From an uncultured Faecalicatena sp. (lineage in GTDB: Bacteria; Bacillota; Clostridia; Lachnospirales; Lachnospiraceae), in assembly GCA_948468385.1 (NCBI GenBank), contig CAOKHZ010000003.1, positions 62,001 to 126,000 of the forward strand: a DNA stretch of 64,000 nucleotides, written 5' to 3'. The position numbers were made by a program, and so were the translations under genes. This document shows positions 6,415-49,836 of the stretch, piece after piece (position 1 is the stretch's first letter; every line of letters begins with the position of its first letter). The notes under the pieces are model-generated. The model was not told where the DNA came from. It saw only the letters and a list, made by a program, of their open reading frames with translations, and ran no database searches.

Positions 6415-7377
6415 TTATAAACTTATTCCCTCGCCCTTCACCTCCACTTCCATCTCCCGAAGCACCTTCACGCAATTTGCGACATACCGCCCCACCGCCG
6501 TCTCCTCCGACATCTGCACGCCATAGACCCCCGACTTGTAAATGTCATACAACGCCTCGATTTCCCCTATCGTGGGAATCGGCTTCGTCTCCATGCTCTT
6601 TAACACCTGCGTGGCGAGGAATATTTTCACGTCGAAGAACAACGCCTTGTCAATGATATATTTCTGGAACCTCGGAATCCGCTCCACCCCGACATCCGTA
6701 GATAAGTCGCCCCTATCGACCAAGATATAATTTGTCAGCGGCAAAATGTCATTTATACGATTGACCGCGTCCAACGTCTCAATCTTCGTAATCAAGTCCG
6801 TCTTTCCACCGACGAGGGAACGCACTTCCTTTACATTTTCCGGTTTCCTGACAAACGATAGCCCCACGAAAGACAACGCCCACTTATTTGCCAGTTCAAT
6901 CAGCTGACGATCTTTCTCAAACAAAAACGGAATGTCGTCGTGAATGCCCCTTACATGGACTCCCTTGTTATTAATCAGCACGCCGTCTGATTTTGACAAA
7001 AACACGATTTTCTCACTATCCGCCGACACCACTTCGAACTCAAAAATGCTGTCGTTCGCCCATGCCGTCATCCCCGGCTTCAAATGCTTGTAAAACTCCG
7101 TATAATTGAACCACTGGCTGGACATTTCAAACGTCTTTCCACTTTCCACCTCAATCCCGCCATTCGGCAAGTCCTTCGTCCGCACCTTGTTTCCCGGCAA
7201 ATCCATCAGAATGTCCGCATCCGGAACTTGCTCCCGAATCTTCAAAATATACTTTTCCACGTCCTCGATACCGCCGTGCGCCCCGTTAATGCGGTAAATG
7301 TTCCTCTCATCATGCACCTCCGTCAATGGCACCTCGTTCAATAACGCTGGTCCTACCGTTAAAATAAATCGCTTCAT
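6415..7377 (-). CDS. Pyruvate-kinase-like barrel protein lacking the C-terminal domain
   Basis: The 320-residue protein aligns by eye with the catalytic barrel of pyruvate kinase: IYRINGAHGG (for RLNFSHG), DLPGNKVRTK, TKIETLDAVNRI (catalytic Lys and Mg-binding Glu region), YILVDRGDLS (for MVARGDLG), ATQVLKSM and MSEETAVG. The regulatory C-terminal domain of ordinary pyruvate kinases (about 470 residues) is absent and the B domain is short. It may phosphorylate or dephosphorylate another enol/keto acid or supply pyruvyl chemistry; the true substrate is unknown. There is no strong ribosome site at the ATG, suggesting coupling to the antiporter gene 91 bp upstream. Confidence 0.75.
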   Translation of the reverse strand: MKRFILTVGPALLNEVPLTEVHDERNIYRINGAHGGIEDVEKYILKIREQVPDADILMDLPGNKVRTKDLPNGGIEVESGKTFEMSSQWFNYTEFYKHLKPGMTAWANDSIFEFEVVSADSEKIVFLSKSDGVLINNKGVHVRGIHDDIPFLFEKDRQLIELANKWALSFVGLSFVRKPENVKEVRSLVGGKTDLITKIETLDAVNRINDILPLTNYILVDRGDLSTDVGVERIPRFQKYIIDKALFFDVKIFLATQVLKSMETKPIPTIGEIEALYDIYKSGVYGVQMSEETAVGRYVANCVKVLREMEVEVKGEGISL

Positions 7378-7468: not shown

Positions 7469-8734
7469 TTACTTTGTCAATTCCATAAATATATTTGCAT
7501 TTATTTTCTGCTGCCTGCGAAGCCAGTATCCGGCAATCAGCGAGGACAACATCGTTGTCAAAATCAGTACCGTGAAAAATTCCACGCTGATAATCTTGTA
7601 AGAATACGCCACCGTCGCCAGCACGATGCCGGGACCCCCGCGGGCATTCATCGTAACCGCAAAATTGATTTTCGTCGCCCGGTTCAAATCCGTAAACTGT
7701 AAAAGGATTAGCGTTCCAATCGCCTCCAGGCCAAACGCGATGGCGAAAAACACGGAAAACCTGACTGCTGAAAAATCATGGATGATGTTTAGCTGAATAC
7801 CCACCAGCGCAAAATAAATCGGAATAAAGAACGAGAACATAAAGTTCCCTAAAGATTCCATTCTGTTTTTCGTCTCATCGTCCACGCCCGCGACCGCTTT
7901 CACAATATATCCGACAAGGAACGACGAATACATGATATTGATTCCCAACTTGTACAACAGTGCCGCGACCAGAAGTAGCGCCGCAAAACTAATGGTGTAA
8001 AAGTCAATCGGCCTAAACTTTCTCTTCCATGTATGTACATGATCCGAAACAAGCTTCACGACCACGAACAAGCCCAGCGTCACGACCACGACCGCCAGCA
8101 TCTCCAAAAGCCTGATTTCCCCCGTCGTCGCAATCCGGGTGGCAGCATTTAGCAGAATCCACAAGCACAAATCCTGAAACGTGGAAACTGTCAGCACGGT
8201 ATCCGAAAACTTGGTATTCATAATTCCCATGTCAAAGAAAATCTTGGAAATCACGGGGATTGACGTAATCGCCACCCCTATGGCAAATACCAGGCCGAAA
8301 GACACCTCGTTTCCCAACTCCCCGATAAAATATTTCTGAAACATGGAAATAAATGGAATCGCGCCCGCCATCGGCAAAACCGTCGCTCCGACAAAGACGC
8401 AGCCAATCGTCCTCACATTTTTCTTGTCAAACTCAATCTTCGTGTTATAGCCGGATAAAAACATCAGGAAAATAAGCCCCAGCTGATAAAAAATATTCAG
8501 CACCTTTCCCTCCTGCTCATACGCCATAAATACCTTTCCCATAATGTCGGGCGCAAAGAAATACAAACAGCTCCCGCCCCAAAGCATTCCCCCGATAATC
8601 TCCCCAACCACTCTCGGTGCCTTTATTTTCTCAAACAAGCTTCCGAAGACATATGCCCCGGACAACAAAAGCGCCAGCGCTATCAGGGTAATAATAATCT
8701 CTTGTTCCGATAACGTTTCCAAATGCATTTTCAT
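7469..8734 (-). CDS. CPA2-type cation/proton antiporter, membrane protein
   Basis: Predicted Na+(K+)/H+ exchanger with about 12 hydrophobic segments starting at IIITLIALALLLSGAYVFG. Family features include GEIIGGMLWGG near the second helix, GLIFLMFLSGYNTKIE, an AIGVAITSIPVISKIFFDMG segment followed by STFQDL (the conserved acidic residue of the transport path), and MNARGGPGIVLATVAY late in the protein. There is no cytoplasmic TrkA-N domain, so it is the short form. The start at ATG 8734 is preferred over the upstream TTG because GAGGGAAAGG precedes it. Its own promoter is at 8837-8865. Why it accompanies glycan genes is unclear. Confidence 0.88.
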   Translation of the reverse strand: MKMHLETLSEQEIIITLIALALLLSGAYVFGSLFEKIKAPRVVGEIIGGMLWGGSCLYFFAPDIMGKVFMAYEQEGKVLNIFYQLGLIFLMFLSGYNTKIEFDKKNVRTIGCVFVGATVLPMAGAIPFISMFQKYFIGELGNEVSFGLVFAIGVAITSIPVISKIFFDMGIMNTKFSDTVLTVSTFQDLCLWILLNAATRIATTGEIRLLEMLAVVVVTLGLFVVVKLVSDHVHTWKRKFRPIDFYTISFAALLLVAALLYKLGINIMYSSFLVGYIVKAVAGVDDETKNRMESLGNFMFSFFIPIYFALVGIQLNIIHDFSAVRFSVFFAIAFGLEAIGTLILLQFTDLNRATKINFAVTMNARGGPGIVLATVAYSYKIISVEFFTVLILTTMLSSLIAGYWLRRQQKINANIFMELTK

Positions 8735-8836
8735 CCCAACCTTTCCCTCAGACAATTCAAACCGTCATACGGTCATGCTTGCCAACGACTATGCCTGCCC
8801 CGCCGTTTCGTTCAGACCGTGTGCCGATGCTAAAAA

Positions 8837-9974: not shown

Positions 9975-11258
9975 TCAATCCCTTCCGAACGGCAAATACT
10001 CATCATTAAAATATTCTATAGGGTTCTCAAGCCCCATGTCCCGTAACTGTTCCGCAATTTCACCATAATAAATATTACATATAAAAATGGCACAATCCCT
10101 CGGCAATTTCTTCAACTCCTCCGGGTTTTTCACCACAAGCCCCTCAAACTCCGTATCCCACAGTCTCTTATTATTATCACACGTAAAGAGCGGCGGAAAC
10201 TCGCCACCATAATATTTCATATAATTGCGACACATGTTTCCCGCACCAAAAAGTACGCGGCTTTCATACTTCGCCAGAACTCGCCTCTGCCCAACCTGCC
10301 ACTTAAAATAGTCTCCCATGGACTTCGCGAAATCCAAATATTTCGTGCGCAGCACTCCCGGCATCACGCAAAACGAATCGGAAAAACTCAAAATGACCAT
10401 CCCGTCAAAGTCAATGTCCCGAAGCCCGCATATCAGCCCCCGCCAATCCGTTCGCGACCCAAACGCGCCCGCGTTTGCAAAAGGTAAAAGCGAAGCCTCC
10501 GCACGACCGTCATTATCTCGAAGAACCACCGCTTTCAGACGGCTGCCAAGCGCTTGGACAAACTCGTACATATTTTGCCCGCAAATATTACAAACACCCA
10601 CGTCTAGGCAAAACCCAAACGTCAGCAAGTCCGTTTTCGCGCCCCTCGATTGCCCCGTCTTCCCGCCTTGTTCCGACATTGTCCGCTGCATTTTCGCGCC
10701 TCCCGATTGCCCCGCCTTCCCGTCTTGTCGCTGCACTGCCGGTGTCGCCCCCGCCCCCGCGTTCAACATGTCAAGAAGTTCCGCGGCCTCTTTCGCATCG
10801 CAGAACGTTCCACGCACCAGATGGCCGTTCACGTCCTTGCATTCATTTTTCAAAAGCAACGTGATGCCATTTTCTCTAGCGACGGCCGCCAACCTTTGAT
10901 ATCCTGCCGCCTGAACTGCCGAATCCCCGTTACTTGTCACTTTTATGGGAAATGCGGGAATAATCAGACCTGGACAACCTATCTTTCCACATGTCCGGAT
11001 ACACTTTTCCGTCAATCGCAACAAAAATTCATTCGAACACGCACGCCCTTCGTTCGCCCACATGTCAGGCGCAATCGCACCCGAAACGCACATGCCATTT
11101 TTATCAAATTCTGCACATACACGGTCTAATATCTGGTCGTCCCACCACGTCGAAAAATCCATCACGATATTCTCAACCCCGGCACGCGCCATAACAGACG
11201 CCCCACGTCCTGGACTGTCAATATTTACAATGCCCTTTGACGAATACACAACATTCAT
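9975..11258 (-). CDS. Degenerate TIM-barrel paralogue with C-terminal Rossmann module
   Basis: The first ~320 residues follow the same barrel as the neighbouring gene. The metal ligands are altered: DTGHAN is DVGVCN, HVHDN is VVLRDN and FETA is SFSD, so isomerase activity is doubtful. Residues about 185-215 are an inserted low-complexity loop made by a 57-bp-period duplication. The C-terminal ~95 residues (VLFGAGNMCRNYMKYY, CDNNKRLWD) are the Rossmann-like module shared by many proteins in this window. The start is ATG 11258 after AAAGGA; a TTG three codons upstream is possible. Transcribed from the divergent region 11259-11636. Confidence 0.72.
   Translation of the reverse strand: MNVVYSSKGIVNIDSPGRGASVMARAGVENIVMDFSTWWDDQILDRVCAEFDKNGMCVSGAIAPDMWANEGRACSNEFLLRLTEKCIRTCGKIGCPGLIIPAFPIKVTSNGDSAVQAAGYQRLAAVARENGITLLLKNECKDVNGHLVRGTFCDAKEAAELLDMLNAGAGATPAVQRQDGKAGQSGGAKMQRTMSEQGGKTGQSRGAKTDLLTFGFCLDVGVCNICGQNMYEFVQALGSRLKAVVLRDNDGRAEASLLPFANAGAFGSRTDWRGLICGLRDIDFDGMVILSFSDSFCVMPGVLRTKYLDFAKSMGDYFKWQVGQRRVLAKYESRVLFGAGNMCRNYMKYYGGEFPPLFTCDNNKRLWDTEFEGLVVKNPEELKKLPRDCAIFICNIYYGEIAEQLRDMGLENPIEYFNDEYLPFGRD
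10634..10728. repeat. Two 38-bp near-identical direct repeats inside a CDS
   Basis: Copies at 10634-10671 and 10691-10728 start TTTTCGCGCC and differ at a handful of bases. The 57-bp period keeps the frame and encodes GQSGGAK / GQSRGAK units in the barrel insertion. Confidence 0.8.
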
Positions 11259-14098: not shown

Positions 14099-15157
14099 CT
14101 ATTCGATAAACACCTTTCCACATTTCAGAATGGCGTCAAAAATCTCCTGCCGCATCATGATTTCATCCGGAATCCTGCCGTCTCCTATGTATTTGCGAAT
14201 AATCGTCCCGCTGATTTCAACCCGGTTCGTCTCATAATGCCCGCACGTATTGTCCGTCACGATTTGCTTGCATTTCGTGCAATAATACGGCTCCCGGGTC
14301 AATAGTAATTCAATCCCAAGGTCGTGTTCTTCAGAGAGCTTCCTTGCCAACGCGTGCGCGTCATAAGCCCCATAATAACCGCCAACCCCCGCATGATCGC
14401 GCCCGATGATAAAATGCGTGCAACCTAGATTCCGCCGAATGATGGCATGAAATACGGCCTCGCGCGGTCCGGCGTAACGCATCTGCGTTTTAAGCCCCGC
14501 CATGTACACCTTGTCCGAAGGGTAAAATTCCTTTATCATTGCCTCATAAGCGGCAATCACCGCCTCCTCGGTAAAGTCACCCTTTTTCTTCCAGCCGGTA
14601 ATCGGGTTGATGAACAACCCGTCACAGACCTCCAGCCCCAGCCGCTGAATGTGCTCATGCGCCTTGTGAACCGGATTCCTCGTCTGGAAGCCCACAACGG
14701 TTTTCCACCCTTTCTCTCTAAAAATCCGTTTCGTCTCTTCCGGCTTTAAGGCTCCGTCAAGCAACTCACGTTTAAGCAACTTCGTTTTTCCCCCGACACG
14801 ATATGGACTTCTCTCGTGCTCCTTTCTCACGCCCGGATGCGCGTCCTCCAAAGTGCCAAATACCTTCTCGATATCCGCGTCCGTCATCTCATACTTGTCC
14901 TCCACGTCAATGGAAGCCACCGCCTCGCCGCCAAACAGCAACTCCAGCGTTTGGCAAGGTTCTGCGTCATATACCTCCTTGGGCACGTCCAGCGTCACCG
15001 GTATCGTGAACACCTCCCTGTTTGCCATCGTGCAATGCTCGATGACGGAACGAAAATCCCGCGTCCGCATAAAGCCGTCAAGCGGGTACAAAAGCCCCGT
15101 TTCTATGTTGATAATGTCTTGTAACGCCTCCTCGTTAATTTCCACTTGTAAGTTCAT
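14099..15157 (-). CDS. sat: Sulfate adenylyltransferase (ATP sulfurylase, Sat type)
   Basis: Makes adenosine 5'-phosphosulfate from ATP and sulfate. The 352-residue protein has the family motifs QTRNPVHKAHE (ATP site), IIGRDHAGVG and EISGTIIRKYIGDGRIPDE, and a CTKC...TCGH metal-binding segment as in homodimeric bacterial/archaeal enzymes. The start is ATG 15157, seven bases after GAGGAGG; further in-frame codons upstream lack a site. It is the last large gene of the long minus-strand glycan run, 70 bp after the CitC-like fusion and near cysC. No APS/PAPS reductase or sulfite reductase is in the window, so PAPS supply for sulfotransferases is the better explanation than assimilation. Confidence 0.95.
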   Translation of the reverse strand: MNLQVEINEEALQDIINIETGLLYPLDGFMRTRDFRSVIEHCTMANREVFTIPVTLDVPKEVYDAEPCQTLELLFGGEAVASIDVEDKYEMTDADIEKVFGTLEDAHPGVRKEHERSPYRVGGKTKLLKRELLDGALKPEETKRIFREKGWKTVVGFQTRNPVHKAHEHIQRLGLEVCDGLFINPITGWKKKGDFTEEAVIAAYEAMIKEFYPSDKVYMAGLKTQMRYAGPREAVFHAIIRRNLGCTHFIIGRDHAGVGGYYGAYDAHALARKLSEEHDLGIELLLTREPYYCTKCKQIVTDNTCGHYETNRVEISGTIIRKYIGDGRIPDEIMMRQEIFDAILKCGKVFIE

Positions 15158-15227
15158 GTATAGCCTCCTCGTTCTGCCATTCAAAAAACCACCTTGCACG
15201 CTTAAAGCACCTCAAATCCACTCATTT

Positions 15228-17432
15228 TCAAGGAAGTTCTTTCTGGTATTCTTCCGTTAAATATGAAAATGTCGTGTCAGGAACCAGTTCCCGTATCAAT
15301 TCCCAATTTTTATCTTCCAGCAAACGCCTTACCCGGCTGGCCGAAATTACGTTTCCGTCTTTCTCAAGCCTTGGTATTTCCTCAAAACCGATTCCATGCC
15401 GTGAAAGAATGGCCTCCAACGTCCGATTGTACTGGTTTGTCACGGTATCAAGCGGCTCCGTCCCCACGAACCGCACCCTAATGTTTGCCGCCGGTGCAAT
15501 CTCATTGGCAAAAAGCGTGACATCCTCCGAGCTGTCCACGACTCGATCTTGCAGCTCAGATTTATTGAAATATTCCGAAAACGTCAATGACGAAAGGACA
15601 AATTTCCCGCTCCCGACCACACAGACATTCTCCAAATCGCCGCATCCCTCTTTTACAAGGCGAATCCGGTCTTCAAACGGAAAAAACGACTTGTCCTCCT
15701 GCACCACGAACACAATTAACATGTCACACTTTCCTGCACATGTTTCAATCAAATAACGATGTCCCAAGGTAAATGGGTTGCAATTCATGACAATGGCGCC
15801 GACCATGTCTTTCGCCCCGGAATAATCAGAATAAATCTCGGCCAGTTCCCGCTTATACTCTTCCAACTCTGACAATTGTTCCTCCGATAAATGATAATCC
15901 CCCTTGGCAACCTGATAGGACGGCTGTTTTTCCAACAAGCTGTCCCTGAAAAAATCATTCGCCCTAAGGGTGTCCAACAACCCTTGCGCCACAAGTCCGT
16001 GCGCCGTCTCCGTCACATGCATGTCATCAAAAAACAACTCACCATGCTTGTAGGGGCGCACTTCCAATTCCTTATTGTAGGAAACAATCTTACCACCCGC
16101 CCCAATCACGATGTCACCGGATTTCAATGGTAATGCTTTTAAAATAGCCAACACTTCTTTCTGCCAGTCCATGCCATCCAAAGCAAACCCATAATTTTCT
16201 ACGAGAAATGACTCTTCGGGAGCATAAATATTCAACAGTTTCTGCAACTGGGAAGCCAGCGTTCCCTCATCTCTCACACCGATACCAAGAATTGAACATC
16301 CACCCACAATATATGCTACTCGTTTAAAGTCTTTTGGTTGCCAGAATGTCCTCCGATGCCCATTCACAGTATTTAAATATTTTCCTTTATAATCTTCAAA
16401 ATGTCTGGCTCCGTCTACTCCCACATAAGACTTCGGCAAAGTCAGCACCTCTAAAATACCCGCTGGCTCTTTTATGTGTTTTGTCAGAGATGGGGATAAC
16501 AACGGATTCTGATAAAATGTGGTATAATGGATTTGTTCTTTTAAAATCCATTTTTCCCCCTCCGATAAATTTTTTTCTGGGAATAACGGATATCGCACAT
16601 TCACAAAAGTCACTCCTGAAATACTCGCCATGAATTCCTGCAAATCCGTCTGTATTCCAGCACGATAAACAAGCAAACTTTCTGAATATGTATCAAAATT
16701 CACAGAATCAACTACATTTCCACTCTCCTTATCATAAATAACAAAAAACAACCCTCTATGCCCAACTCGCCTTTCTCTCCCGTCAATCATCACACTGCAC
16801 ATACGCGGTGAATCCACCTTCTGCATTCCCGCACTTTTAACAAAAATCTCCGTATTCTTTAACGTGCATCTAATACTAACGGAATGTGTATCGGAAATTT
16901 TTTCATCCACTTTGTATCCATCATCTATCACAGCGCAATAAGATGCTCTCCATTTATTCCAAAGATTAACACTCAACCCTAATAACTGAAGCCGTTCTCC
17001 TAACTCCTCAGTAAATCTGCGACTCCCACATGGCGTATCCCTTGACGTAATAATAATCGTATACCCGTCTTCCGCCGCCTGAAGAAGCAAATCAAGATAC
17101 CGCGAGAATTTTGTCTCCGCACGAAACTCTTCCGAAGATGTACGTTCTATCTCGACTCTCTCCAATATTTCCCTGATAGCCTCGATTTGCCCCAACGTGT
17201 CCTCGCTCCCGAACGCTGAGGACAACATGCCACCCAGCCCCTTGAACCGCGCTGCAAGTTGACTTGTATCCCCGATTTCTTCCACATACCCCGCAACCTC
17301 GTTGGCAAAAAACGCCATGTCCAAAGCCAGCTTTTCCCTCGCTTCACCCGCTCCCATGCCTGATAATATCTCCGCCGCCTCCTGCAACGTATGAAACAAT
17401 TCACATAGTTTCTCGTACTGTAGCTTTCTCAT
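15228..17432 (-). CDS. Three-part protein: ILEI-like, SGNH-like and CitC-like nucleotidyltransferase
   Basis: About 734 residues. Helical N-terminus (1-110), then an ILEI/FAM3-like lectin-fold domain (about 115-270; IDGRERRVGHRGLFFVIYD and VNFDTYSES), a SGNH/GDSL-hydrolase-like domain (about 370-510; GGCSILGIG with candidate Ser, closing DDMHVTETAHG with the Asp/His pair) and a C-terminal domain closely like citrate-lyase ligase CitC (about 545-730; AIVMNCNPFTLGHRYLIE with the nucleotidyltransferase HxxH-type site, ISASRVRRLL). The order suggests an activated-acyl or adenylyl transfer to a glycan. The start is ATG 17432 after AAGGAAGGGG. It sits between sat and cysC. Domain calls are by eye. 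Confidence 0.7.
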   Translation of the reverse strand: MRKLQYEKLCELFHTLQEAAEILSGMGAGEAREKLALDMAFFANEVAGYVEEIGDTSQLAARFKGLGGMLSSAFGSEDTLGQIEAIREILERVEIERTSSEEFRAETKFSRYLDLLLQAAEDGYTIIITSRDTPCGSRRFTEELGERLQLLGLSVNLWNKWRASYCAVIDDGYKVDEKISDTHSVSIRCTLKNTEIFVKSAGMQKVDSPRMCSVMIDGRERRVGHRGLFFVIYDKESGNVVDSVNFDTYSESLLVYRAGIQTDLQEFMASISGVTFVNVRYPLFPEKNLSEGEKWILKEQIHYTTFYQNPLLSPSLTKHIKEPAGILEVLTLPKSYVGVDGARHFEDYKGKYLNTVNGHRRTFWQPKDFKRVAYIVGGCSILGIGVRDEGTLASQLQKLLNIYAPEESFLVENYGFALDGMDWQKEVLAILKALPLKSGDIVIGAGGKIVSYNKELEVRPYKHGELFFDDMHVTETAHGLVAQGLLDTLRANDFFRDSLLEKQPSYQVAKGDYHLSEEQLSELEEYKRELAEIYSDYSGAKDMVGAIVMNCNPFTLGHRYLIETCAGKCDMLIVFVVQEDKSFFPFEDRIRLVKEGCGDLENVCVVGSGKFVLSSLTFSEYFNKSELQDRVVDSSEDVTLFANEIAPAANIRVRFVGTEPLDTVTNQYNRTLEAILSRHGIGFEEIPRLEKDGNVISASRVRRLLEDKNWELIRELVPDTTFSYLTEEYQKELP

Positions 17433-17556
17433 CACATGCCCCTTCCTTGTCCAATGCGCACCCATCCCTTACCTATCACGCAGCCATCACACTTCTGTCA
17501 TGTAGCCATCATGCACTTATCGCGCACCTATCCTCCATTATCACTCACCGCAACAT

Positions 17557-18075
17557 CTATCCCACATATTCCTCGCCATACTTCTTTGCAACATAATCCA
17601 CAACCGCCTGATACGTCTCCTCAACCGTCATCTTGTCCACTTCCAATACCAAGTCCGGGCTCTGTGGCTCGTCAAACGTCGCGTCGATTCCAACGATCTG
17701 CGTCTTTCCAACGTTCTTTTGATACATGCCCTTGACATCATTTTTCATGCTAACCTGCAAGTCCTTCTTCAAATAAATCTCATTGTACCCAGCTATCTTT
17801 CTCCTCGCGAGCTGCCGTAAATGCTCCAACGGCCCGATATTACAAATGATTCCGATAATGTCATTCCGATCCAAAAGATACGCCCCGAGGATAATCCGCT
17901 TGATATTCGCCTCCCGGTCGGCATCCGTGTAGCCGAGGTCACGGTCAAACAAGTCCCGCACCTCGTCGCCGTCCAGCAAATAGCATTTTTTTCCCAACTC
18001 ATTAAAATGTGATTCCAATTTTCTCCCGATGGTAGTCTTGCCCGCACCGGAAATTCCGATTAACCAAAGTATCAT
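17557..18075 (-). CDS. cysC: Adenylylsulfate (APS) kinase
   Basis: Phosphorylates APS to PAPS, the donor for sulfotransferases. Walker A GISGAGKTT, the LDGDEVRDLF...LGYTDADREANIKRI block and MKNDVKGMYQK are characteristic. It is slightly short at 172 residues. The usual ISP(F/Y)RxxR segment reads CNIGPLEHLRQLARR, a divergence near the acceptor lid, so kinetics may be unusual. It lies 124 bp after a CitC-like gene in the plus-coordinate direction and 46 bp downstream of the sulfotransferase-like giant (18122-20815), forming a sulfation cluster with sat. The 17433-17556 spacer holds only CATCA-rich short repeats. Confidence 0.9.
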   Translation of the reverse strand: MILWLIGISGAGKTTIGRKLESHFNELGKKCYLLDGDEVRDLFDRDLGYTDADREANIKRIILGAYLLDRNDIIGIICNIGPLEHLRQLARRKIAGYNEIYLKKDLQVSMKNDVKGMYQKNVGKTQIVGIDATFDEPQSPDLVLEVDKMTVEETYQAVVDYVAKKYGEEYVG

Positions 18076-18121
18076 TACCGCTTCGCCTCCTACTCATAAA
18101 TAACTAAACATAAAATTTTTC

Positions 18122-20815
18122 TCAAAACCCCACCTCGTTATAAAACACCCGCTCCGGCAAAATCCCCATGTTTTTGAACTCCCTCTCTATGCTCCAGCCA
18201 TATTGGCTTGATGTTACCAAAATGTAATAATCTTTATATGTATTGCAAAGTTCCTCCGGCGAAACCACATCTTTCCCTTCGAAAACATAAGGGTGCATCG
18301 TTGCTTTCTTGTCACTATACAAAAACCGTCGCTTCAAATCCTCATCCGCCAATACCAACAAGCCCTTGCAGTCATTACCCGTACCATACAAAATCAGCTT
18401 GTCATGACTTTTTATATACTCCATCATCTTTGCAATTTTCTCTTCATTAAATTTTTTTATACGTTCCTTTGCCGTCTGCTTTAATTCAAACCGCTCAAAC
18501 TCTGAATGTATATCGTCTAATACCATATGCTTTCTAACATTCCATAACTGCCAGCCTATCCACTCACGCATATTTAAATCTTCGGACTCATCCTTTCCAA
18601 AGACCTTCTTCTCATCAAAGCGAAACGGCTTGAGAAACAATTCCTGCAACTCCCTGCGGGAGAATTTCAAACAATTTTCATAGACAAAGCCATACCTTTT
18701 TTGATAAGGACTACTTGCGATGGAAATCCGAAAACGATCAAATTCCGAGAGAAAATCCTCATAATCATTAAACACTGCCTTCAAATCAAAGTCCACGCTG
18801 CCTCGATATGCCAATGGCTTACCCACGCTTGTAGTTTGCAGCATCGTATCCGACCACTTTATGCCAAGCTTCTCACAAACCTCCTTCAATTTTTCTTTCG
18901 GGTTGACTTTGAGGTCTTCAAAACGCATCTTAAACTCTTCCCAATGATGATACAAAAAACTGCCCTCACCCAATCCCGACAAATCTAAAAACATCACTTG
19001 GTACGCCGATGGCGGGTTCCATTTATCCAGCCTCCTTGCGCATGCCGAACCGGTTCTGACTATATTATTTCTTCGCAATATAATGGTATGTCCATCCACT
19101 TTCTCATCTTCCAGCCATAATGCAAAGAAAGGAAACTCCTCCCTTGATACAAAATGAGGCTCCCAATAAATAACCAATTTGGAAATATCCTCAAGCCGTT
19201 TTCCGCTCAGCATTTCTGCATAAGCAACATGGAAAAGCACGAACAACTCCTGGGAAGTAAAACTTTTCTTAAGCCCTACCAATCGTCTTACACTTTCTTC
19301 AAACATATCCACCCTTTTAAAATAATTATCCTTGCTCCCCGCTTCCTCATCATACATTTCCCAAAATCTTGATAATATCTCGTCTGAATCCATGTATGCC
19401 AGTCGTATACAGTAATAAAATAGGTTTTCATTTAAATCAGAATATGGAATAATCAAGATTTCCGAATGACCATCCATGATTCCCCGGAAGAAAACATTAC
19501 CGCTCCATCCAGGGATATCTCCCAAAAGCATTCCCTTGGGTAACAAATCCAAAATCCCATACTTTTCTTTATCTTGATTCAAATATAAATCTATCAAGGC
19601 AAAGCAACGGCTACTTACAAAATACTCTGTATAATTTGTAAATTCCATCTCCACAAGCTGACGCTTTAGTTCCTTTCTATTTGTTTCCCCGACCTCCTTC
19701 AAACGATTATGATAGTCTGGAACCACCAAGCATAAAATGTCATCCTTTTCCACCGATACCTTTTGTCCCAACTCTATATATTTTATCGTTACTTCCTCAT
19801 TTTCCACGGCCTTCAAATAGTCCGCCAGTAATTGACAAAGCCGTCCGTCACCAGTCAGCCAGACCTTCTTTTTGCGCAGTACATGAACCAGATTATTGGC
19901 AGGGATATCCGTGTAATCCTTAAGCAGGAAATATTGCCGATTTCTTTCATACCCACAATAATCAAAGTACTCTGTCAGTTCTTCTCCGAGTGCCCCATGC
20001 TTATCCTTGCAATTTATAAATATTGGTGACGAAAGACATTGTATGGCATCCAAAATGCTCATTACGGCCTTTCCCAACAACCTTTTCTTCTCCCGACATT
20101 CTTTTACAGCAAAACCACATATATCTATTCCTTTTTCCATAAGCACATCATATGCATCCTGAGCCTCTCGATCCATGCCCAGAATAACAATTTCGCACTT
20201 GTCTTTCAGATATCGTACCAATTCATCAAAATCGCCAATCGTATCCTTTATCTTTCCATTTAAAACATTTGCCTCGTAGATTTTATCAATACACTCGAAT
20301 GCTGAAGACGCACTTCTTTTCACAAGTTGAAACAAGCTTCCATTTTGAAACACGGCACTTTCCGCATATATGATAAGCTTTCCATTCCCGTTCAACTCCA
20401 TTTCGTAATTACTTATGTACCCAAAATATTTCCAATATTTTCCTATTACAGACACACGCACACCGCAATCCGTCAAATACTTTGCGAAAGAAACCGCAAG
20501 TTCGCTACAACCACAAATAACCACTTCTTTGTACTCCGGGAAAACATCCGTAAACTGCAACGCGCCCTTGTTACCCCGCACTTCTTTCAACATGCGGAGT
20601 TCTCTGTTCGCCTCGCGATCCTGGTAACCATAGGCAAGCAGCGTTCCTTCCTCATCCCTGACAAGCGTTAAGTATATCATGCCCTCCTGCCGCCAACCAG
20701 AGTTTTTAAATATAGTTCTGCCATCTTTCCAAATGTTATTTTCCATAACAAGCGACATCTCATCTAGTCTGGCACCTTTCCCGATATTATAATTAAAATC
20801 AAAAAACCTAAGCAT
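18122..20815 (-). CDS. Large sulfotransferase-like protein with several Rossmann-like modules
   Basis: About 897 residues. The central part (about 420-720) resembles sulfotransferases: LGDIPGWSGNVFFRGIMDGH corresponds to the 5'-phosphosulfate loop, and MRFEDLKVNPKEKLKEVCEK to the typical C-terminal RxEDL helix. The C-terminal ~95 residues are the shared Rossmann module (LILYGTGNDCKGLLVL). Up to three more such units precede the sulfotransferase part: EVVICGCSELAVSFAKYL, EIVILGMDREAQDAYDVL and VWLTGDGRLCQLLADYL. ATG 20815 follows GGGGAAGAG; an in-frame GTG at 20842 is possible. It lies directly upstream of cysC on the transcript. The sulfotransferase call is moderate; it is more divergent than 61181-62563. 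Confidence 0.65.
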   Translation of the reverse strand: MLRFFDFNYNIGKGARLDEMSLVMENNIWKDGRTIFKNSGWRQEGMIYLTLVRDEEGTLLAYGYQDREANRELRMLKEVRGNKGALQFTDVFPEYKEVVICGCSELAVSFAKYLTDCGVRVSVIGKYWKYFGYISNYEMELNGNGKLIIYAESAVFQNGSLFQLVKRSASSAFECIDKIYEANVLNGKIKDTIGDFDELVRYLKDKCEIVILGMDREAQDAYDVLMEKGIDICGFAVKECREKKRLLGKAVMSILDAIQCLSSPIFINCKDKHGALGEELTEYFDYCGYERNRQYFLLKDYTDIPANNLVHVLRKKKVWLTGDGRLCQLLADYLKAVENEEVTIKYIELGQKVSVEKDDILCLVVPDYHNRLKEVGETNRKELKRQLVEMEFTNYTEYFVSSRCFALIDLYLNQDKEKYGILDLLPKGMLLGDIPGWSGNVFFRGIMDGHSEILIIPYSDLNENLFYYCIRLAYMDSDEILSRFWEMYDEEAGSKDNYFKRVDMFEESVRRLVGLKKSFTSQELFVLFHVAYAEMLSGKRLEDISKLVIYWEPHFVSREEFPFFALWLEDEKVDGHTIILRRNNIVRTGSACARRLDKWNPPSAYQVMFLDLSGLGEGSFLYHHWEEFKMRFEDLKVNPKEKLKEVCEKLGIKWSDTMLQTTSVGKPLAYRGSVDFDLKAVFNDYEDFLSEFDRFRISIASSPYQKRYGFVYENCLKFSRRELQELFLKPFRFDEKKVFGKDESEDLNMREWIGWQLWNVRKHMVLDDIHSEFERFELKQTAKERIKKFNEEKIAKMMEYIKSHDKLILYGTGNDCKGLLVLADEDLKRRFLYSDKKATMHPYVFEGKDVVSPEELCNTYKDYYILVTSSQYGWSIEREFKNMGILPERVFYNEVGF

Positions 20816-20915
20816 CCTTCTCTTCCCCCGATATCGCCGCACCTATCTATCAAGCCTATATAAGGATCTGTCATAAAATAACTATTCACAGCCACTTCAC
20901 ACACATGCACAGTTT

Positions 20916-23132
20916 CTAATCCACTAGAAATCCAACATCATAGTCCGCATCCACGCCAAAATAAAACTCTCTCGAAAAATGATATCCAACCCGCTCCCAA
21001 CACTGGTACATGTCTATAACCTCCAAATCGCCATATAACTTATCCGCCTCTTTTCTCAAATCCTCCAAATATATTTGAGATGACAACAAGACCGCCTTTA
21101 TCGTATCTGGAAGACTCTCACCCGGTTTAAAAATCGGAACGCCCATTTTATTACAGACGCACTGTCCGCTCCTATCAATAATAGCACCTATTTTCTTTTT
21201 ATTCGCTTCCGTCAACGATTCATACAACCGATACGAATGCTCGCCACCCATCCGCAATGCAATACTCCCATCCACATATTCGCTAAATTTTTCATTCGTC
21301 ACTTTGGCAACGGCGCGAAACGTATTTTTCACATTTTCATATGCCTTATACGTGTATGCCGCATATTGGAACTTAGAATCCGAATCCAATTCGTTCGGAA
21401 ATCCGCCTACCAGCTCCCTCCATTCCCGAAAACTCGTTAATTGTTTTTTCACCAATCCCCCAAAAACAGTCCTCTTCAATAGATTTTTTGATTCCCTATA
21501 AAACAATTCGTCCCCTGTCTTGAATCGAAGATAGATATCACCTTTTTTTACACATCCTTTATATGCAATGTAATCATTCAACTCAATTCTCTCTTTTTTT
21601 TCAAAAATCACATTTAAGTCTTTCTTATTATAGTGATCCACATCCTGAATCGGAACAATCCCACGCTCCCATGTATCGTCATTTATTTCTTGTTTTTCCA
21701 GCAAGCAATGTATAATTTTTCCAAAATCCAGATAACAAAATAGCTCTTGTATATCCCGGCCTTTCCATGAAGCATGATACACCTGAAAATGGACATGAAA
21801 TCTTTTCCAAAAATTCCCATATCCATGATCGCTCATGTAAATTCGGTAAAACCCATCGCCCAGCAAGCCGTCATAAAAACACAATTGTTCATCCAATTCT
21901 TTTTTCTGCGCTTCGCGTGCCTCTCTGCTGTATTGTTTTTCCAAGTGCTTTCTTCGTACACTTAATTCAGGTGGGTGTAACTCCACAAAGGCATGTGCCA
22001 AATATACTGTTTTTTGTTTGTTTTGCAACATCTCCCCAAGCAGGTTCCAAAACATTTCAGAACACGGCGTTCTCTTTGTAATCTCGGCACAAGGGCTATA
22101 TTCCATCGGAAAAAGCGAACGCAGATAATCGCTTATCAGTTCAAACCGCCATCCCCTTCCTTCCAATTCTCTCAACAACGGACTATTCTTCCTCTCTATC
22201 CGCTTTACACGATATCCCAAATCGTCCACCTGCAAAATTTTACAAAACATATTTTTACAAGTCGGATGCGTACACGGTGTCACCGTATACGCATTATGGA
22301 AATACACGGAATGCTCCCGACGGCTTTGAAGATATTCAAAGCCCTTCGCCTCCTCATAGGATAGTGCATCCAGCCAATAAACAATGATATTATCTTGCTG
22401 AACCAATGACACGGCTTTCCTTATTTTTGAAAATAGACTTTGAATTTCCTCCCAGCATTGTCCCAACTCGGTCTTGTCCGTCATTCTGTCCAAAACCTTC
22501 TCCACCTCCAAAAAATTCCGCATACATATCGCAAGAAAAAATAACTTTTCAGCAATCCTTTGTTTATCCCTTTCATGTAACGCATGACGAAGCCTTTGCT
22601 TTTGGTAATAATACTCATACAAAACAAGTGCAGAACCATCTACCGATTTTTCTTCTCTCTGCTCGTCCAACCCAAGCTCTGGGTTCATTTTCAATGGGAC
22701 AAAAAAACGATAAAACTCCATCTGCAAATATATCTGCTCATTTTCCAATATGTCATACACGGATTCCGCCTGAAACCCATGCCGCCAAATCCAATGCAAT
22801 ATTTCTATCGTTCTACTATAAGAAACGACATATATTTTATCCGCGTTTTCCAGTCGTCCAAAGCCTCCCCTGGTATTGTTTTCAAGCTCCTCGACAGTAC
22901 TTATGAACAGAATATCGACATTATCCGCCTGCGCCCAATTGGAAATCAGTCTCAATGCATGCTCATCCATGCCCACAAATAAAAATTTCTCTTCTTCGTT
23001 TGCAAGCCGTTTTACCCATTTTTGTATAAAGTCACACGCCCATCTTGACGTTCTGTATGCGGGATAATGTCTATCCAGATTATATGTTTCAATTATGCTT
23101 TCAAGTTCCTTATCAATATCCAAACAAACCAT
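20916..23132 (-). CDS. Alkaline-phosphatase/sulfatase-superfamily protein with N-terminal Rossmann-like part
   Basis: About 738 residues. Residues 45-145 (FLFVGMDEHALRLISNWA, KIYVVSYSRTIEIL) look like the shared Rossmann module. The following domain has the metal and nucleophile pattern of the superfamily: IIVYWLDALSYEEAKG (metal Asp), TVTPCTHPTCKNMF (nucleophile position) and RIYMSDHGYGNFW (metal Asp-His). The nucleophile appears to be Thr rather than the Cys/Ser-x-Pro-x-Arg of formylglycine sulfatases, so a phospho- or phosphoglycerol-transferase or hydrolase is more likely than a sulfatase. The last 250 residues are unassigned. No membrane helices are seen. Start overlaps the preceding gene by 20 bases, with AAGGAG nearby. 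Confidence 0.6.
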   Translation of the reverse strand: MVCLDIDKELESIIETYNLDRHYPAYRTSRWACDFIQKWVKRLANEEEKFLFVGMDEHALRLISNWAQADNVDILFISTVEELENNTRGGFGRLENADKIYVVSYSRTIEILHWIWRHGFQAESVYDILENEQIYLQMEFYRFFVPLKMNPELGLDEQREEKSVDGSALVLYEYYYQKQRLRHALHERDKQRIAEKLFFLAICMRNFLEVEKVLDRMTDKTELGQCWEEIQSLFSKIRKAVSLVQQDNIIVYWLDALSYEEAKGFEYLQSRREHSVYFHNAYTVTPCTHPTCKNMFCKILQVDDLGYRVKRIERKNSPLLRELEGRGWRFELISDYLRSLFPMEYSPCAEITKRTPCSEMFWNLLGEMLQNKQKTVYLAHAFVELHPPELSVRRKHLEKQYSREAREAQKKELDEQLCFYDGLLGDGFYRIYMSDHGYGNFWKRFHVHFQVYHASWKGRDIQELFCYLDFGKIIHCLLEKQEINDDTWERGIVPIQDVDHYNKKDLNVIFEKKERIELNDYIAYKGCVKKGDIYLRFKTGDELFYRESKNLLKRTVFGGLVKKQLTSFREWRELVGGFPNELDSDSKFQYAAYTYKAYENVKNTFRAVAKVTNEKFSEYVDGSIALRMGGEHSYRLYESLTEANKKKIGAIIDRSGQCVCNKMGVPIFKPGESLPDTIKAVLLSSQIYLEDLRKEADKLYGDLEVIDMYQCWERVGYHFSREFYFGVDADYDVGFLVD

Positions 23133-25485
23133 CACTTCCTACTCCTTCACTTTCCTCTCCTTGTATCTGCGCCTTTATCTTCGACGAGCTAATCCTCTCC
23201 GTGTATGGAAAAAACACCAAATCCGCTCCGCGCTGCTGCAAATATATCTTTTCCGCAATCCAGTCTGGGTCGTTCTCATAATCGCTACCAGAAAACTGGA
23301 CATCAAAATGATACCGCCGATATGCCTCCTCCGTTCCCGAAGTTTCAATTGGTATTTTTACCGCTTCATCCACATATCTGCATGCGCCCACGATTTCCAA
23401 ACGTTCCTCAAACGATATATACGGTCTTGTCTTCTTATTTCTTATAACCTGCTCGTCAGAGACGACCCCGACAATCAGATAATCGCACAATTCCTTCGCC
23501 CTTCTAAGCAAATTCAAATGTCCAACATGGAACAAGTCAAACACGCCCGCGACATAACCTATATGATATTTTTTAGGTTCTTTCTTTTCCTCCACACATG
23601 CCTGCTTCAAAGGTCTGTCATATTCCAGATTCGGGTTGTACACCACAAAGTCTTTTATTCCCATGTCTTTCAGTTGTTCCATGACGGTGTCAAAATACTT
23701 GATGCAAATGAACACCCGAAATGGCATTTTAATTTCCTGCAGCTTTTTGGGTGAACTTATCTTTAAATCCCTTGCGTTTCCGACATCTTCCATGGCAGAA
23801 AACGTCTTCCCCCACTTATTCTCGTCATTATCCACGATGCCGGCGATTTCATAATACGCTGAAAACTGCGAAATAAACTGTTCCGCAAATCTTCCCGAAC
23901 CAAACAAATAAATCGCCTTGTCCTCCACGTCTTTAAAAATGTTTGTGAATAACCTTCCGTATTCCTCCTGCGTGTAATCCATCCTATGACGGTTAAACTC
24001 TGTCGTGCGCCAATCACGCCTACACAGCTTGTGATAACCGGCAAGCGCGTCCTCGCTTCGGAGCTTCCGAATAAACACTTCCGTAAACTTCCGCCATGTC
24101 GATTGATGCTCCCATAACCTAAAATATCTCAACAACTCTTCTCTAGGCAATATCGCCTCCAAATCCGCGCGTCCCTCGTATATCAAATCTATCGTTCGGA
24201 TAAAAATCACGTTTGCAGGCAAATTTTCGACATAAAATTCCTGGTCGAAAAACAAAAAGCCAGCTTCTGTGTAAAAACAATTCAAAGAAACTAGGTCAAT
24301 GTATCCTCTTTTTAAAATGATTCCGATATCAGCCCGTTCCTCCAAACTTCCAAACGCAAGTCTCTCCCACTTGTCCATATTGGGATCGTCAGATTTCCTT
24401 TTTTCCCAACCCGGTTCAAACTGCCGCCAATTTATCTCATCATAAGAAACCGTCTCCGATGAACACAAAATAATGTCCCTGAAACGCTCCAATTCCGCGA
24501 CAAACTCGTCCTTGTCCTTCCTTAGAGTTTTCCTAAAATACAAGGTGGCAATTTCTCCCTCAACATAAGGCATCATAAAAGAATCTCCCGACACTTTTGC
24601 TTCTATCATTGGTATCCCTTGTTTCACTAAATATTTGGTATTGTCCAACAACTCCGATATCCGCTTTCGCCCTTCCTCATACAACGCCCTCTTACAGATG
24701 TCTTTTCCACTTCTTATAATCGTCGCAAGCGCGTTTTCACGCCCCCGATCTCCCGACACCGTGATTTGATCCGCATCCGTCAACCGTCCGTCCATGGAAC
24801 ACTCTATCAGAAACCCATTTGCCATAGAATGAAACATCCCGTTTTTTAACAAATCATCATATAACCGTTCCTCTTCCAAAAACACGGTCTGTGGGCAATG
24901 ATACTGGGGAAATACCCGAACATCCAACGCCTCATTTGGAACGTACGTGTCCGCCAGTATCACCTGCGGTCTTGAAATCGCCGGTACTACGGAATAAAAT
25001 TTTTGCCACTTAAACCCCGCTTCCAAAAACAGCTCCTGCAGTTCCGCTTTCGAATACGCCCTTCCCCGCATCTTCTTCCATCTTTCGGGTCTTACCCTTG
25101 CATAATTCTCGATGCCGTCCAAAACATGTCCCGTATACTCGTCCCTATCGCCACAAAAATACCGAATTGCCAGCCTATTATCCGCAGCGGCAAGTAACCT
25201 TCCATCAGTCGCCAAAAGGCTTTTCACCTTTTTCAACAAAACATGCGGCCGCCTGCTCCTTTCAATCGCTCCAACCAGCATAACATAGTCGAACCGTTCC
25301 CCGCATCCATAAACCTCGTCCTCGCGACATTTCAAAACATTCAACCCTAGTCTGGAAAAAGTACCAAGCAACTCGTCCCTTTCCTCGCTGCCATCAGTAA
25401 CCAGAAGCAAATCCGACCGCCTTTTGAACGGATACCATGCGACAAGGGTTCCCGGAAGTTCTTTTTCCACCTCCTTATTCTGCAT
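23113..25485 (-). CDS. Multidomain protein: methyltransferase-like, kinase-like, Rossmann module, cytidylyltransferase
   Basis: About 790 residues. N-terminal SAM-methyltransferase-like fold (about 20-165, FDYVMLVGAIERSRRPHVLL), a middle region with phosphotransferase-like features (FMMPYVEGE; LVSLNCFYTEAGFLFFDQEF), a shared Rossmann module (about 535-635; AIYLFGSGRFAEQFIS, VDNDENKWG) and a C-terminal TagD/RfaE-type cytidylyltransferase (about 645-785; GVFDLFHVGHLNLLRRA with the HxGH site, ISFEERLEIV). The last domain probably makes a CDP-polyol or NDP-activated unit. ATG 25485 overlaps the end of the upstream glycosyltransferase gene by 11 bases. The kinase-like call is tentative. Confidence 0.7.
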   Translation of the reverse strand: MQNKEVEKELPGTLVAWYPFKRRSDLLLVTDGSEERDELLGTFSRLGLNVLKCREDEVYGCGERFDYVMLVGAIERSRRPHVLLKKVKSLLATDGRLLAAADNRLAIRYFCGDRDEYTGHVLDGIENYARVRPERWKKMRGRAYSKAELQELFLEAGFKWQKFYSVVPAISRPQVILADTYVPNEALDVRVFPQYHCPQTVFLEEERLYDDLLKNGMFHSMANGFLIECSMDGRLTDADQITVSGDRGRENALATIIRSGKDICKRALYEEGRKRISELLDNTKYLVKQGIPMIEAKVSGDSFMMPYVEGEIATLYFRKTLRKDKDEFVAELERFRDIILCSSETVSYDEINWRQFEPGWEKRKSDDPNMDKWERLAFGSLEERADIGIILKRGYIDLVSLNCFYTEAGFLFFDQEFYVENLPANVIFIRTIDLIYEGRADLEAILPREELLRYFRLWEHQSTWRKFTEVFIRKLRSEDALAGYHKLCRRDWRTTEFNRHRMDYTQEEYGRLFTNIFKDVEDKAIYLFGSGRFAEQFISQFSAYYEIAGIVDNDENKWGKTFSAMEDVGNARDLKISSPKKLQEIKMPFRVFICIKYFDTVMEQLKDMGIKDFVVYNPNLEYDRPLKQACVEEKKEPKKYHIGYVAGVFDLFHVGHLNLLRRAKELCDYLIVGVVSDEQVIRNKKTRPYISFEERLEIVGACRYVDEAVKIPIETSGTEEAYRRYHFDVQFSGSDYENDPDWIAEKIYLQQRGADLVFFPYTERISSSKIKAQIQGEESEGVGSDGLFGY

Positions 25486-47954: not shown

Positions 47955-49622
47955 TTACTGAAGCAGTTGCAACACGCCCTGCGGAATCTGATTAGCCTGC
48001 GCGAGCATAGCCTGAGAAGCCTGAACCAGGATGTTGTTCTTGGTGTAAGCCATCATTTCCTCAGCCATGTCAACGTCGCGGATACGGCTCTCAGCAGCGG
48101 TCATGTTCTCGGTCGTCACACTCAGGTTGTTGATGGTGTGCTCCAGACGGTTCTGGATGGCACCCAAATCACCACGAGTGGAGGATACGTAGTTGATAGC
48201 AGCCTTAATCTTGTCAACCGCATCCGAAGCACCCTGCTGCGTGCTGATATCGATGTCGTTAATTCCCATTGCCTTGGTGTGCATGTCGCTTACGGACACA
48301 CGCATCTTGTTGAAGGCATCAGACGTGTCACCAATCTGAAGAATCAAGCCGCCGCTCTCTTTGCCACGGCTCAAGCGGATACCATCGCCAGGTGCAACAC
48401 CCGTAGGTGTCGTTTCATTCACGGCATCTGTTACTGTCAAACCGGTCACTTCTGCGATTTTGGCAATATTCTGTTCCCAGTTCGCGTCGGCTTTATTAAT
48501 ACCCTTGTTTGTACCATCAGAAACCAAAATCGTGACATCCGATCCCAGACCCAAGGCCGCATTCATCGCAGTACCACTTTCGCCCAACGTGTCTGCGTCC
48601 ATGTCGCCTACCATGACCACGAATTTATGACCGTTAATTGAAAACACTGCATCCTCATAATTTTTGCCATTGTACAGTGTAATCTGATCTTTGCTAATTT
48701 CGCGTCCCACATCCAACGGCTTTGTCGACTTAACACCTATTTCGACCTCCTGAAGCGTTCCGCCCACGGTCCATTCCGCGTCCATCGCTTGAACGGTCGG
48801 CGTGTCTGTTCCTTCCTCAAGAGCATCCAATTTAATGATACCATCCGACTTTATCGAGATATTGTAGTCCTTGCTCAAGGATGTTTGGTTCAACTCGGAA
48901 AGAACGGCCGCATCAATTTCCTTCACCGTTGCCGCACCAGAAGTAACTGCATATACCTGGCCACTATTTCCAACCAGCTTGGTAACATTACCATTGTTGT
49001 CCTTTTGAGCAGTTAATGTAACCGTATGGGATTCGCCGTTTTCCAATGCCACCGTGTACTTAAACGTGTCATTTTCTTTGAACGCAACGGCTGCATTCCC
49101 CCAGGCCGTACCAGCCTCATAAGAGCCTTTTAATCCAGCAGATTTGGAACTGCCGATACCATTGACTACGATGTTCGAAGCGGACGTTCCCTTGCTCGAC
49201 AAAGATCCATCCAACAGATTGATTCCGTTGAAGTTCGTGCTGTCAGCGATACGGTTGATCTCGTCTTTCAGGGATGCAACTTCCTTCTGCAGGTTCTCAC
49301 GGTCTACTTCGTCAGCGTAGGTTCCGTTCGCGGACTGGTCAGCCAACTCTACCATACGATTCAGCATGGAGTGGATTTCCGTCATGGCACCCTCGGCCGT
49401 CTGTACCAAAGAAATACCGTCGTTGGCATTCTTCTGGGCGGTCTTCAGACCGGTAATCTGGGCACGCATCTTTTCGGAAATGGCCAATCCGGCGGCATCG
49501 TCGCCTGCACGGTTGATTCTGTAACCGGAAGAAAGCTTCTCAAGGTTCTTGGAAACCGCGCTGTTGTTCACTGTTAAATTACGATAGGAATTTAATGCAG
49601 CAATGTTGTGTTGAATTCTCAT
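47955..49622 (-). CDS. Flagellin 1
   Basis: Filament subunit, 555 residues. N-terminal D0/D1 ([40 protein letters not shown]) and C-terminal D1/D0 (VRDVD-type [32 protein letters not shown]) are intact. The Ser/Thr-rich middle (about 140-440) is the surface-exposed D2/D3 region and the likely site of O-glycans. It is divergent from flagellin 2 (55254-56948), while the first ~140 residues are identical and encoded by nearly identical DNA. GGAGG seven bases before the ATG lies in a CsrA-type site (see leader). No type III signal peptide is expected. Confidence 0.97.
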
Positions 49623-49836
49623 AATAATACCTCCATGTTTTTAGTCGGAGACCTCCATGTCTCCCCTATTTTTGGCTTTGAGCACACTGGCTCGTGTCTT
49701 GCGTAATTGTTTGATAACTCCCCGCCCCTTCACCAAGTACGGGCCCTATGCTGGTGGAACGAGCCGGGATTTACAAGCGTTTTTGGCGGGTGCTTTGCCC
49801 GCGTTTTTGACGCTTATGTACCTATTATCGAACATT
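49207..49836 (-). repeat. 630-bp inverted arm, flagellin 1 copy
   Basis: Base-by-base reading shows this stretch (promoter -10, leader, first ~415 bp of the gene) matches 55040-55669 in opposite orientation with only two substitutions. Beyond either edge the sequences diverge sharply. Confidence 0.9.
49629..49664 (-). promoter_or_regulatory. CsrA-type double site in flagellin 1 leader
   Basis: Two exact ACATGGAGGT copies. One (49629-49638) contains the ribosome site; the other (49651-49660) places GGA in the loop of a GGAGAC/GTCTCC hairpin (49647-49664). This matches the two-site arrangement of CsrA on the Bacillus hag leader. Confidence 0.7.

Follow-up and report, generated by a model that had tools for sequence, protein, structure and literature searches.

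Clusters of the NodPQ-NodH type combine sulfate activation genes (CysDN and CysC, or CysNC) with a sulfotransferase for the synthesis of sulfated surface glycans or Nod factors. In the archaeon Halobacterium salinarum, glycoproteins carry a sulfated N-linked tetrasaccharide (PMC11980604), and the archaellins are N-glycosylated (PMC6591318). Here we analyze a 64,000-nucleotide stretch of DNA (the window; G000:C3:62001-126000) from an uncultured Faecalicatena sp. of the family Lachnospiraceae, whose genome assembly has a size of 4.25 Mb and a completeness of 94%. The window carries genes for an ATP sulfurylase (Sat), an adenosine 5'-phosphosulfate (APS) kinase-like protein, an antiporter, and a pyruvate kinase reduced to its barrel domain. 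We read these genes, with a probability of about 0.6, as a cassette that would make 3'-phosphoadenosine 5'-phosphosulfate (PAPS), recycle its own ADP, and supply the sulfation of flagellin or of a surface glycan.

Like NodPQ-NodH-type clusters, the locus places sulfate activation genes with a sulfotransferase-like gene and glycan genes; a second PAPS set in this genome is itself of the NodPQ-NodH kind. Unlike those clusters, the locus comprises a sulfurylase of the Sat type and a small divergent kinase, adds a barrel-only pyruvate kinase together with an antiporter, and is paired with a divergent sulfotransferase-like protein. With the H. salinarum system (PMC11980604) it would share the action of sulfotransferases on glycans of surface proteins, but that system is archaeal and N-linked and involves no bacterial flagellin. 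Searches of titles and the first parts of abstracts in the open-licence PubMed Central (PMC) literature found no description of such a cassette, of sulfotransferase clusters in Lachnospiraceae, or of sulfated bacterial flagellin, the last in agreement with an earlier note on this DNA. The arrangement, in which genes for PAPS synthesis come with a pyruvate kinase of their own and adjoin divergent sulfotransferase-like genes or, in relatives, also flagellin directly, is real and conserved. In the window, it comprises the following genes.

18122-20842, minus strand: ST906, a sulfotransferase-like protein of 906 amino acids with a GTG start; the sulfotransferase-like region spans about residues 437-720
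17557-18075, minus strand: APS-kinase-like protein of 172 amino acids (PF01583, E = 2.6e-35, above the Pfam cut-off)
15228-17465, minus strand: protein of 745 amino acids with an ILEI domain and a C-terminal nucleotidyltransferase domain of the citrate-lyase-ligase type (PF08218, E = 2.6e-63; PF15711, E = 6.9e-08); accessory gene
14099-15199, minus strand: Sat-type ATP sulfurylase of 366 amino acids (PF01747, E = 9.2e-80; PF14306, E = 6.2e-30)
7469-8755, minus strand: CPA2-type cation/proton antiporter of 428 amino acids (PF00999, E = 2.6e-39; TIGR00932, E = 2.2e-27, below its cut-off)
6415-7377, minus strand: barrel-only pyruvate-kinase-like protein of 320 amino acids (PF00224, E = 1.4e-46); final gene of the cassette

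A minus-strand series of glycan genes begins at 47810, and the first four of the genes listed close it. The earlier note had placed a sulfurylase, an APS kinase, and a sulfotransferase-like gene in one run with glycan genes, and this is confirmed, with ST906 recognized by weak signals; the note did not name the gene at 15228-17465 and covered half of the cassette. That note ended the run at 20815, which fits a start of ST906 at residue 10; the annotated gene starts at 20842 with GTG. Sat exceeds the NCBIfam cut-off for PRK04149 (408.2 versus 387 bits), contains both the PUA_2 and the ATP-sulfurylase domain, and has an intact QxRNPxHxxHE motif. Among 16 aligned Sat rows, QTRNPxHKAHE and QMRY occur in all 15 with residues there. 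All 16 cassette kinases compared carry G7, S9, G10, G12, K13, T15, D35, G36, D37, R40, R54, N57, and K115, which include the P-loop, the DGD, and the R, R, N, and K of the substrate site of APS kinases; the roles of the DGD and substrate-site residues are assumed here. The pyruvate-kinase-like protein aligns with solved pyruvate kinases and lacks the PK_C domain; its active-site residues are present, and the residues checked, whose catalytic roles we likewise presume, are identical in all rows covering them (13 or 14 of 14) except at position 60. A separate protein with a PK_C domain is encoded in 15 of the 17 cassette genomes, and a search at E = 1e-60 through 391 genomes of the class detected a pyruvate-kinase-like protein of this kind in one, the window genome.

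We scanned named genomes with three aligned kinases as the query. Seventeen loci were returned, and the set counted here is also 17, with the window added and the outlier L071 left out; labels on the same contig (L054 with L058, L055 with L069) are counted once. By record title, most of the loci come from Lachnospiraceae and Oscillospiraceae, and the kinases most similar to the window's copy (98% and 91%) are both in loci titled Lachnospiraceae. Two named strains, Pseudobutyrivibrio ruminis CF1b and Anaerosacchariphilus polymeriproducens MCWD5, have contigs that carry the cassette. Kinases of the window's type are rare: a kinase scan of 397 genomes of the family finds them in three. Fifteen loci can be read downstream of the kinase; the contigs of L062 and L073 stop there. 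Across these 15, the order is kinase-sat-antiporter-pyruvate kinase: sat is 3' of the kinase in every one, a pyruvate-kinase-barrel protein is encoded in 14 (absent from L063), and a CPA2-type antiporter is encoded in 13 (absent from L063 and L069). Sat is the next gene after the kinase or, in the window, L057, and L072, follows the gene for the 745-amino-acid protein, which has full-length matches only in L057 and L072 and partial ones in L062 and L068; in L072 it forms a single open frame of 1,113 amino acids with Sat. The antiporter and pyruvate kinase genes of the window lie 5.3 kb past sat, with a GDP-fucose-synthase-like gene on the opposite strand and two TIM-barrel genes between sat and the antiporter. 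A broken copy counts against the sulfation reading: sat of L061 is split over two tblastn pieces with a change of frame. The excluded locus, L071, is from a Flavobacteriaceae genome; its kinase (10001-10522) is 38% identical and has no adjoining Sat, and a clear Sulfotransfer_3 gene (L071:12456-13535, E = 5.2e-25) lies 1.9 kb downstream of it.

In the pathway that we propose, Sat would convert sulfate and ATP to APS, the small kinase would convert APS to PAPS, and the sulfotransferase-like product of the gene immediately 5' of the kinase would use PAPS to sulfate a surface acceptor. This acceptor may be flagellin itself or a glycan on flagellin or the cell surface, a choice that sequence does not settle. 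With phosphoenolpyruvate, the barrel-only pyruvate kinase would return the ADP formed by the APS kinase to ATP and so relieve a dead-end complex of APS kinase, ADP, and APS; the antiporter may serve ion or sulfate balance. The dead-end complex is treated in a review (passages of PMC3734648), and an engineered in vitro cascade gave practically no PAPS peak once deprived of its pyruvate kinase regeneration module (passages of PMC9885120), from which we infer that the cassette's pyruvate kinase is most simply read as removing ADP. Like that cascade, as it appears in these passages, the cassette would join sulfurylase and APS kinase activities to a pyruvate kinase that removes ADP. The two differ in that the cascade was engineered, with human PAPSS1 and added pyrophosphatase, whereas the cassette, judged by its genes alone, is one natural cluster. 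No pyrophosphatase is among the genes annotated here, though no search was aimed at one.

In ten of the 17 loci, the gene immediately 5' of the kinase encodes a sulfotransferase-like partner. Five of these genes are of the ST906 type (window, L057, L065, L066, and L072), and five are of a second type, ST664, encoding about 670 amino acids (L060, L061, L063, L064, and L073; the contig ends within the L063 copy). In L060, L061, L064, and L073, the kinase starts within 33 nucleotides of the ST664 stop. These are also the four ST664 loci readable further upstream, and in all of them fliC shortly precedes ST664, with a single gene of a borderline CxxCxxCC family intervening in L073. By record title, two of the four fliC-ST664-kinase loci belong to Oscillospiraceae, one to Neglecta, and one to Peptostreptococcaceae; in L064 the region is preceded by the FlgK and FliW genes. 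In the L069 genome, a gene for a Maf-type flagellin glycosyltransferase (L055:5335-7101) follows the pyruvate kinase.

Active sulfotransferases have K/R-S-G-T as their 5'-phosphosulfate-binding (5'-PSB) loop and, as their 3'-phosphate-binding (3'-PB) element, an arginine and a serine eight residues apart (R-x7-S). ST906 resembles the protein-tyrosine sulfotransferase/Sulfotransfer_3 family (PF13469) in a weak sequence match, in its C-terminal region, and in R-x7-S. With phmmer, it matches human protein-tyrosine sulfotransferase 2 (E = 0.004), and the only place found by a genome-wide PF13469 search is its C-terminal tail (E = 0.048, below the cut-off). A hidden Markov model (HMM) of the ST906 domain matches L053:2200-3816 at E = 3.8e-24 in a small set, and this relative passes PF13469 (30.4 versus 27 bits); ST906 itself scores below the Sulfotransfer_3 gathering cut-off. 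R-x7-S is kept in all seven ST906 rows covering it and in L053. The ST906 and ST664 families are linked by profile comparison (probability 92%, E = 7e-07), and HMM searches concur. Both differ from the PF13469 family in a degenerate 5'-PSB and in large extra regions, which in ST664 include an N-terminal helical repeat that is TPR-like by eye and has no Pfam TPR match. The ST664 alignment finds nothing among PDB sequences at E = 1. In seven other genomes of the family, the last ~100 residues of ST906 also have matches in proteins that are otherwise unrelated, and this part seems to be a small domain common to glycan-locus proteins.

A number of observations weigh against the proposed pathway and the place of ST906 and ST664 in it. 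The 5'-PSB reads S-G-N in all seven ST906 rows, with the threonine of K/R-S-G-T gone, and its basic residue is missing from six of them (IPGWSGNV in the window's copy; arginine only in L065:8525-9970); ST664 has HNGGD in four of four rows, and the R-x7-S spacing was not seen in it. No Pfam family matches ST906 at E = 0.1. Both AlphaFold models are too poor for interpretation: that of ST906, built from five sequences, has a mean pLDDT (predicted local distance difference test) of 48.8 with the sulfotransferase-like region mostly low, and that of ST664 (mean 42.8) is confident only in the N-terminal helical stretch. For the ST906 homologs of G315 (39%) and G251 (27%; genome 79% complete), no APS kinase was detected in either genome. 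The ST906 gene adjoining the kinase in L065 is split in two frames, with another copy further up. Seven of the 17 loci lack ST906 or ST664 beside the kinase; the ST906 alignment has no match in the genomes of four of these, matches two only in its N-terminal part, and has two long matches on another contig of the remaining one, G408, one of them with two stops. Searching the same seven genomes with PF13469 at E = 0.05 found nothing in five, and a PF13469 protein above the cut-off is present in 2 of the 17 cassette genomes, G408 and G411. Within the window, 27 kb separate ST906 from the nearer of the two flagellin genes.

The degenerate loops, the relatives in genomes with no detected APS kinase, and the seven loci lacking an adjacent partner would all be expected if the cassette makes PAPS for others: ST906 and ST664 would then have lapsed or changed their donor, and PAPS would pass to unrecognised transferases or to ST460, a second sulfotransferase-like protein of the window. 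The loss of the usual 5'-phosphosulfate loop residues from ST906 also limits the support for the interpretation in the earlier note. We nevertheless regard a lapsed partner as unlikely, given the position of these genes directly upstream of the kinase in ten loci, the short spacing in four, the retention of R-x7-S throughout the ST906 rows, and the basic loop residue in one of them.

ST460 is encoded in the second flagellin island of the window.

61181-62563, plus strand: ST460, a sulfotransferase-like protein of 460 amino acids with the motifs PKTGSSSIQ and RRQDLYFES, both conserved in its family

The earlier note had called this protein a clear sulfotransferase. Its motifs support that description, the K-T of the 5'-PSB being present in all 20 and the R...S of the 3'-PB in all 21 of the rows that cover them (24 unique rows), but no Pfam family matches it at E = 0.1, and no PDB sequence does at E = 1. 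A second PAPS set, out of view of the earlier note, lies on the same contig, 13.6 kb beyond the window end (G000:C3:139625-143177), in the order cysD, cysNC, a CysQ-type PAP (3'-phosphoadenosine 5'-phosphate) phosphatase gene, and a sulfate ABC transporter. Curated cut-offs are exceeded by CysD, CysNC, and CysQ and by the transporter's binding and membrane components; its ATP-binding component scores just below. Family members of ST460 with the sulfotransferase part occur in 14 other genomes among 299 of the family, and an APS kinase is present in all 14, against 37 of 298 (P about 2e-14); APS kinases were counted at E = 1e-18 or better, the window genome, G252, and G283 were dropped (the latter two match only the C-terminal domain), and the statistic assumes that these 299 genomes are the first 299 of the 397 in the kinase scan. 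The two genes are within about 2.4 kb of each other in ten of the 14 genomes and on different contigs in the other four; in the window genome, ST460 is about 15 kb from cysD. Because of this co-occurrence, ST460 fits the second PAPS set, and cysD, cysNC, cysQ, and the sulfate transporter most likely serve ST460. The interpretation in the earlier note stands in part. A PAPS supply for sulfation is supported by the Sat motifs, the mostly intact substrate residues of the kinase, the failure to find a PAPS reductase (CysH), and the occurrence of the cassette in 17 loci amid flagellin and glycan genes, but the genome has the second set as well, and it is this one that fits ST460, the sulfotransferase with the stronger support. 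Heptose-pathway-like genes precede the second set: an HddA-like gene (L008:53-799, cut at the locus start), a nucleotidyltransferase/GmhB-like fusion (L008:8167-9519), and a GmhA-like gene (L008:9574-10224); all heptose-specific NCBIfam models in L008 score below their cut-offs.

The kinase itself departs from canonical APS kinases in ways that also count against a role in PAPS synthesis. It passes the Pfam cut-off but falls below every NCBIfam cut-off, missing TIGR00455 by 2 bits (136.8 versus 138.7). When the 16 cassette kinases were compared with 28 canonical-type APS kinases, position 112, in the RDxKG motif, was asparagine in 15 and lysine in one of the former and arginine in all of the latter, and position 127 was isoleucine or valine in the former and phenylalanine in 26 of the 28. 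Nucleotidyltransferase-like domains are encoded nearby. We therefore considered whether the protein might instead be a nucleotide kinase that serves a different activated group, as Cj1415 of Campylobacter jejuni, which we take to be APS-kinase-like, would be in the O-methyl phosphoramidate pathway. Synthesis of O-methyl phosphoramidate requires cj1415-cj1418 (passages of PMC3907429), and papers use the name cytidine diphosphoramidate kinase. Such a function is improbable because Sat, with its motif intact, follows the kinase wherever the locus can be read. The DGD, R40, R54, N57, and K115 in every cassette kinase likewise argue for APS as the substrate. So do the solved relatives: all 24 among the matches listed are APS kinases or enzymes of PAPS synthesis, and 7yq0 and 8a8h, the best two, have leucine rather than phenylalanine at the place of Ile127.

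We also considered cysteine assimilation, using PF01507 and PF01077. The earlier note had reported that no assimilatory reductase is present. This holds for CysH: the single PF01507 protein of the window genome (94% complete) is CysD, and therefore no CysH was found. It does not extend to the sulfite/nitrite-reductase family, as a NIR_SIR protein is encoded in the window genome (G000:C27:29009-29461) and in 11 of the 17 cassette genomes in all, so sulfite reduction as such may occur. A PF01507 protein is absent from 5 of the 17 cassette genomes, whose completeness is not stated; those of the other genomes are CysD-sized (303 to 365 amino acids, 190 to 200 bits) or weak matches, apart from larger proteins at 108 to 116 bits in two genomes. 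In L057, the nearest relative, a PALP (cysteine-synthase-like) gene and an Rrf2 gene adjoin the cassette, the only such case in the 17 loci. Despite these genes, the NIR_SIR proteins, and the two larger PF01507 proteins, it is very improbable that the cassette feeds cysteine synthesis, as PAPS would require a PAPS reductase and the neighbors are flagellin and glycan genes.

Three further genes of the window were examined.

20916-23135, minus strand: protein of 739 amino acids, kin to sulfatase/alkaline-phosphatase-superfamily proteins encoded beside other cassettes
47955-49622, minus strand: flagellin gene 1, identified by its translation; as a query it retrieves the flagellin genes of other cassette loci
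55254-56948, plus strand: flagellin gene 2, identified by its translation

The 739-amino-acid protein has no Pfam match at 0.01 in the window's copy, and its relative L054:1235-3466 matches PF00884 (E = 3.5e-08). By tblastn, it is 24 to 29% identical to copies in L058, L062, L069, and L070 and 62% identical to that in L072, and it matches L057 in two pieces. It is a possible glycan-modifying partner. The tyrosines of the flagellins were listed with tyrosine sulfation in view and gave nothing decisive. A perfect 639-nucleotide inverted repeat (49198-49836 and 55040-55678) covers the upstream and 5' parts of the two divergent flagellin genes, a tyrosine recombinase (52648-53559; PF00589, E = 1.2e-39) is encoded between its copies, and the region between them is possibly invertible.

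The more specific proposal is that gut Clostridia sulfate their flagellin, or its glycan, with sulfotransferases of a new family, which would receive PAPS from the products of a self-contained operon that includes a pyruvate kinase for ATP recycling. It is tentative, and we put it at somewhat less than even odds. The order fliC, sulfotransferase-like gene, kinase yields a direct, testable prediction, and the cassette would be a natural counterpart to engineered PAPS systems that require pyruvate kinase. The flagellins of gut Lachnospiraceae are major antigens recognized by the host. Sulfate on these flagellins or on their glycan, if true, would mean a surface chemistry new to this group and could bear on recognition by TLR5 or antibodies and on mucus binding.

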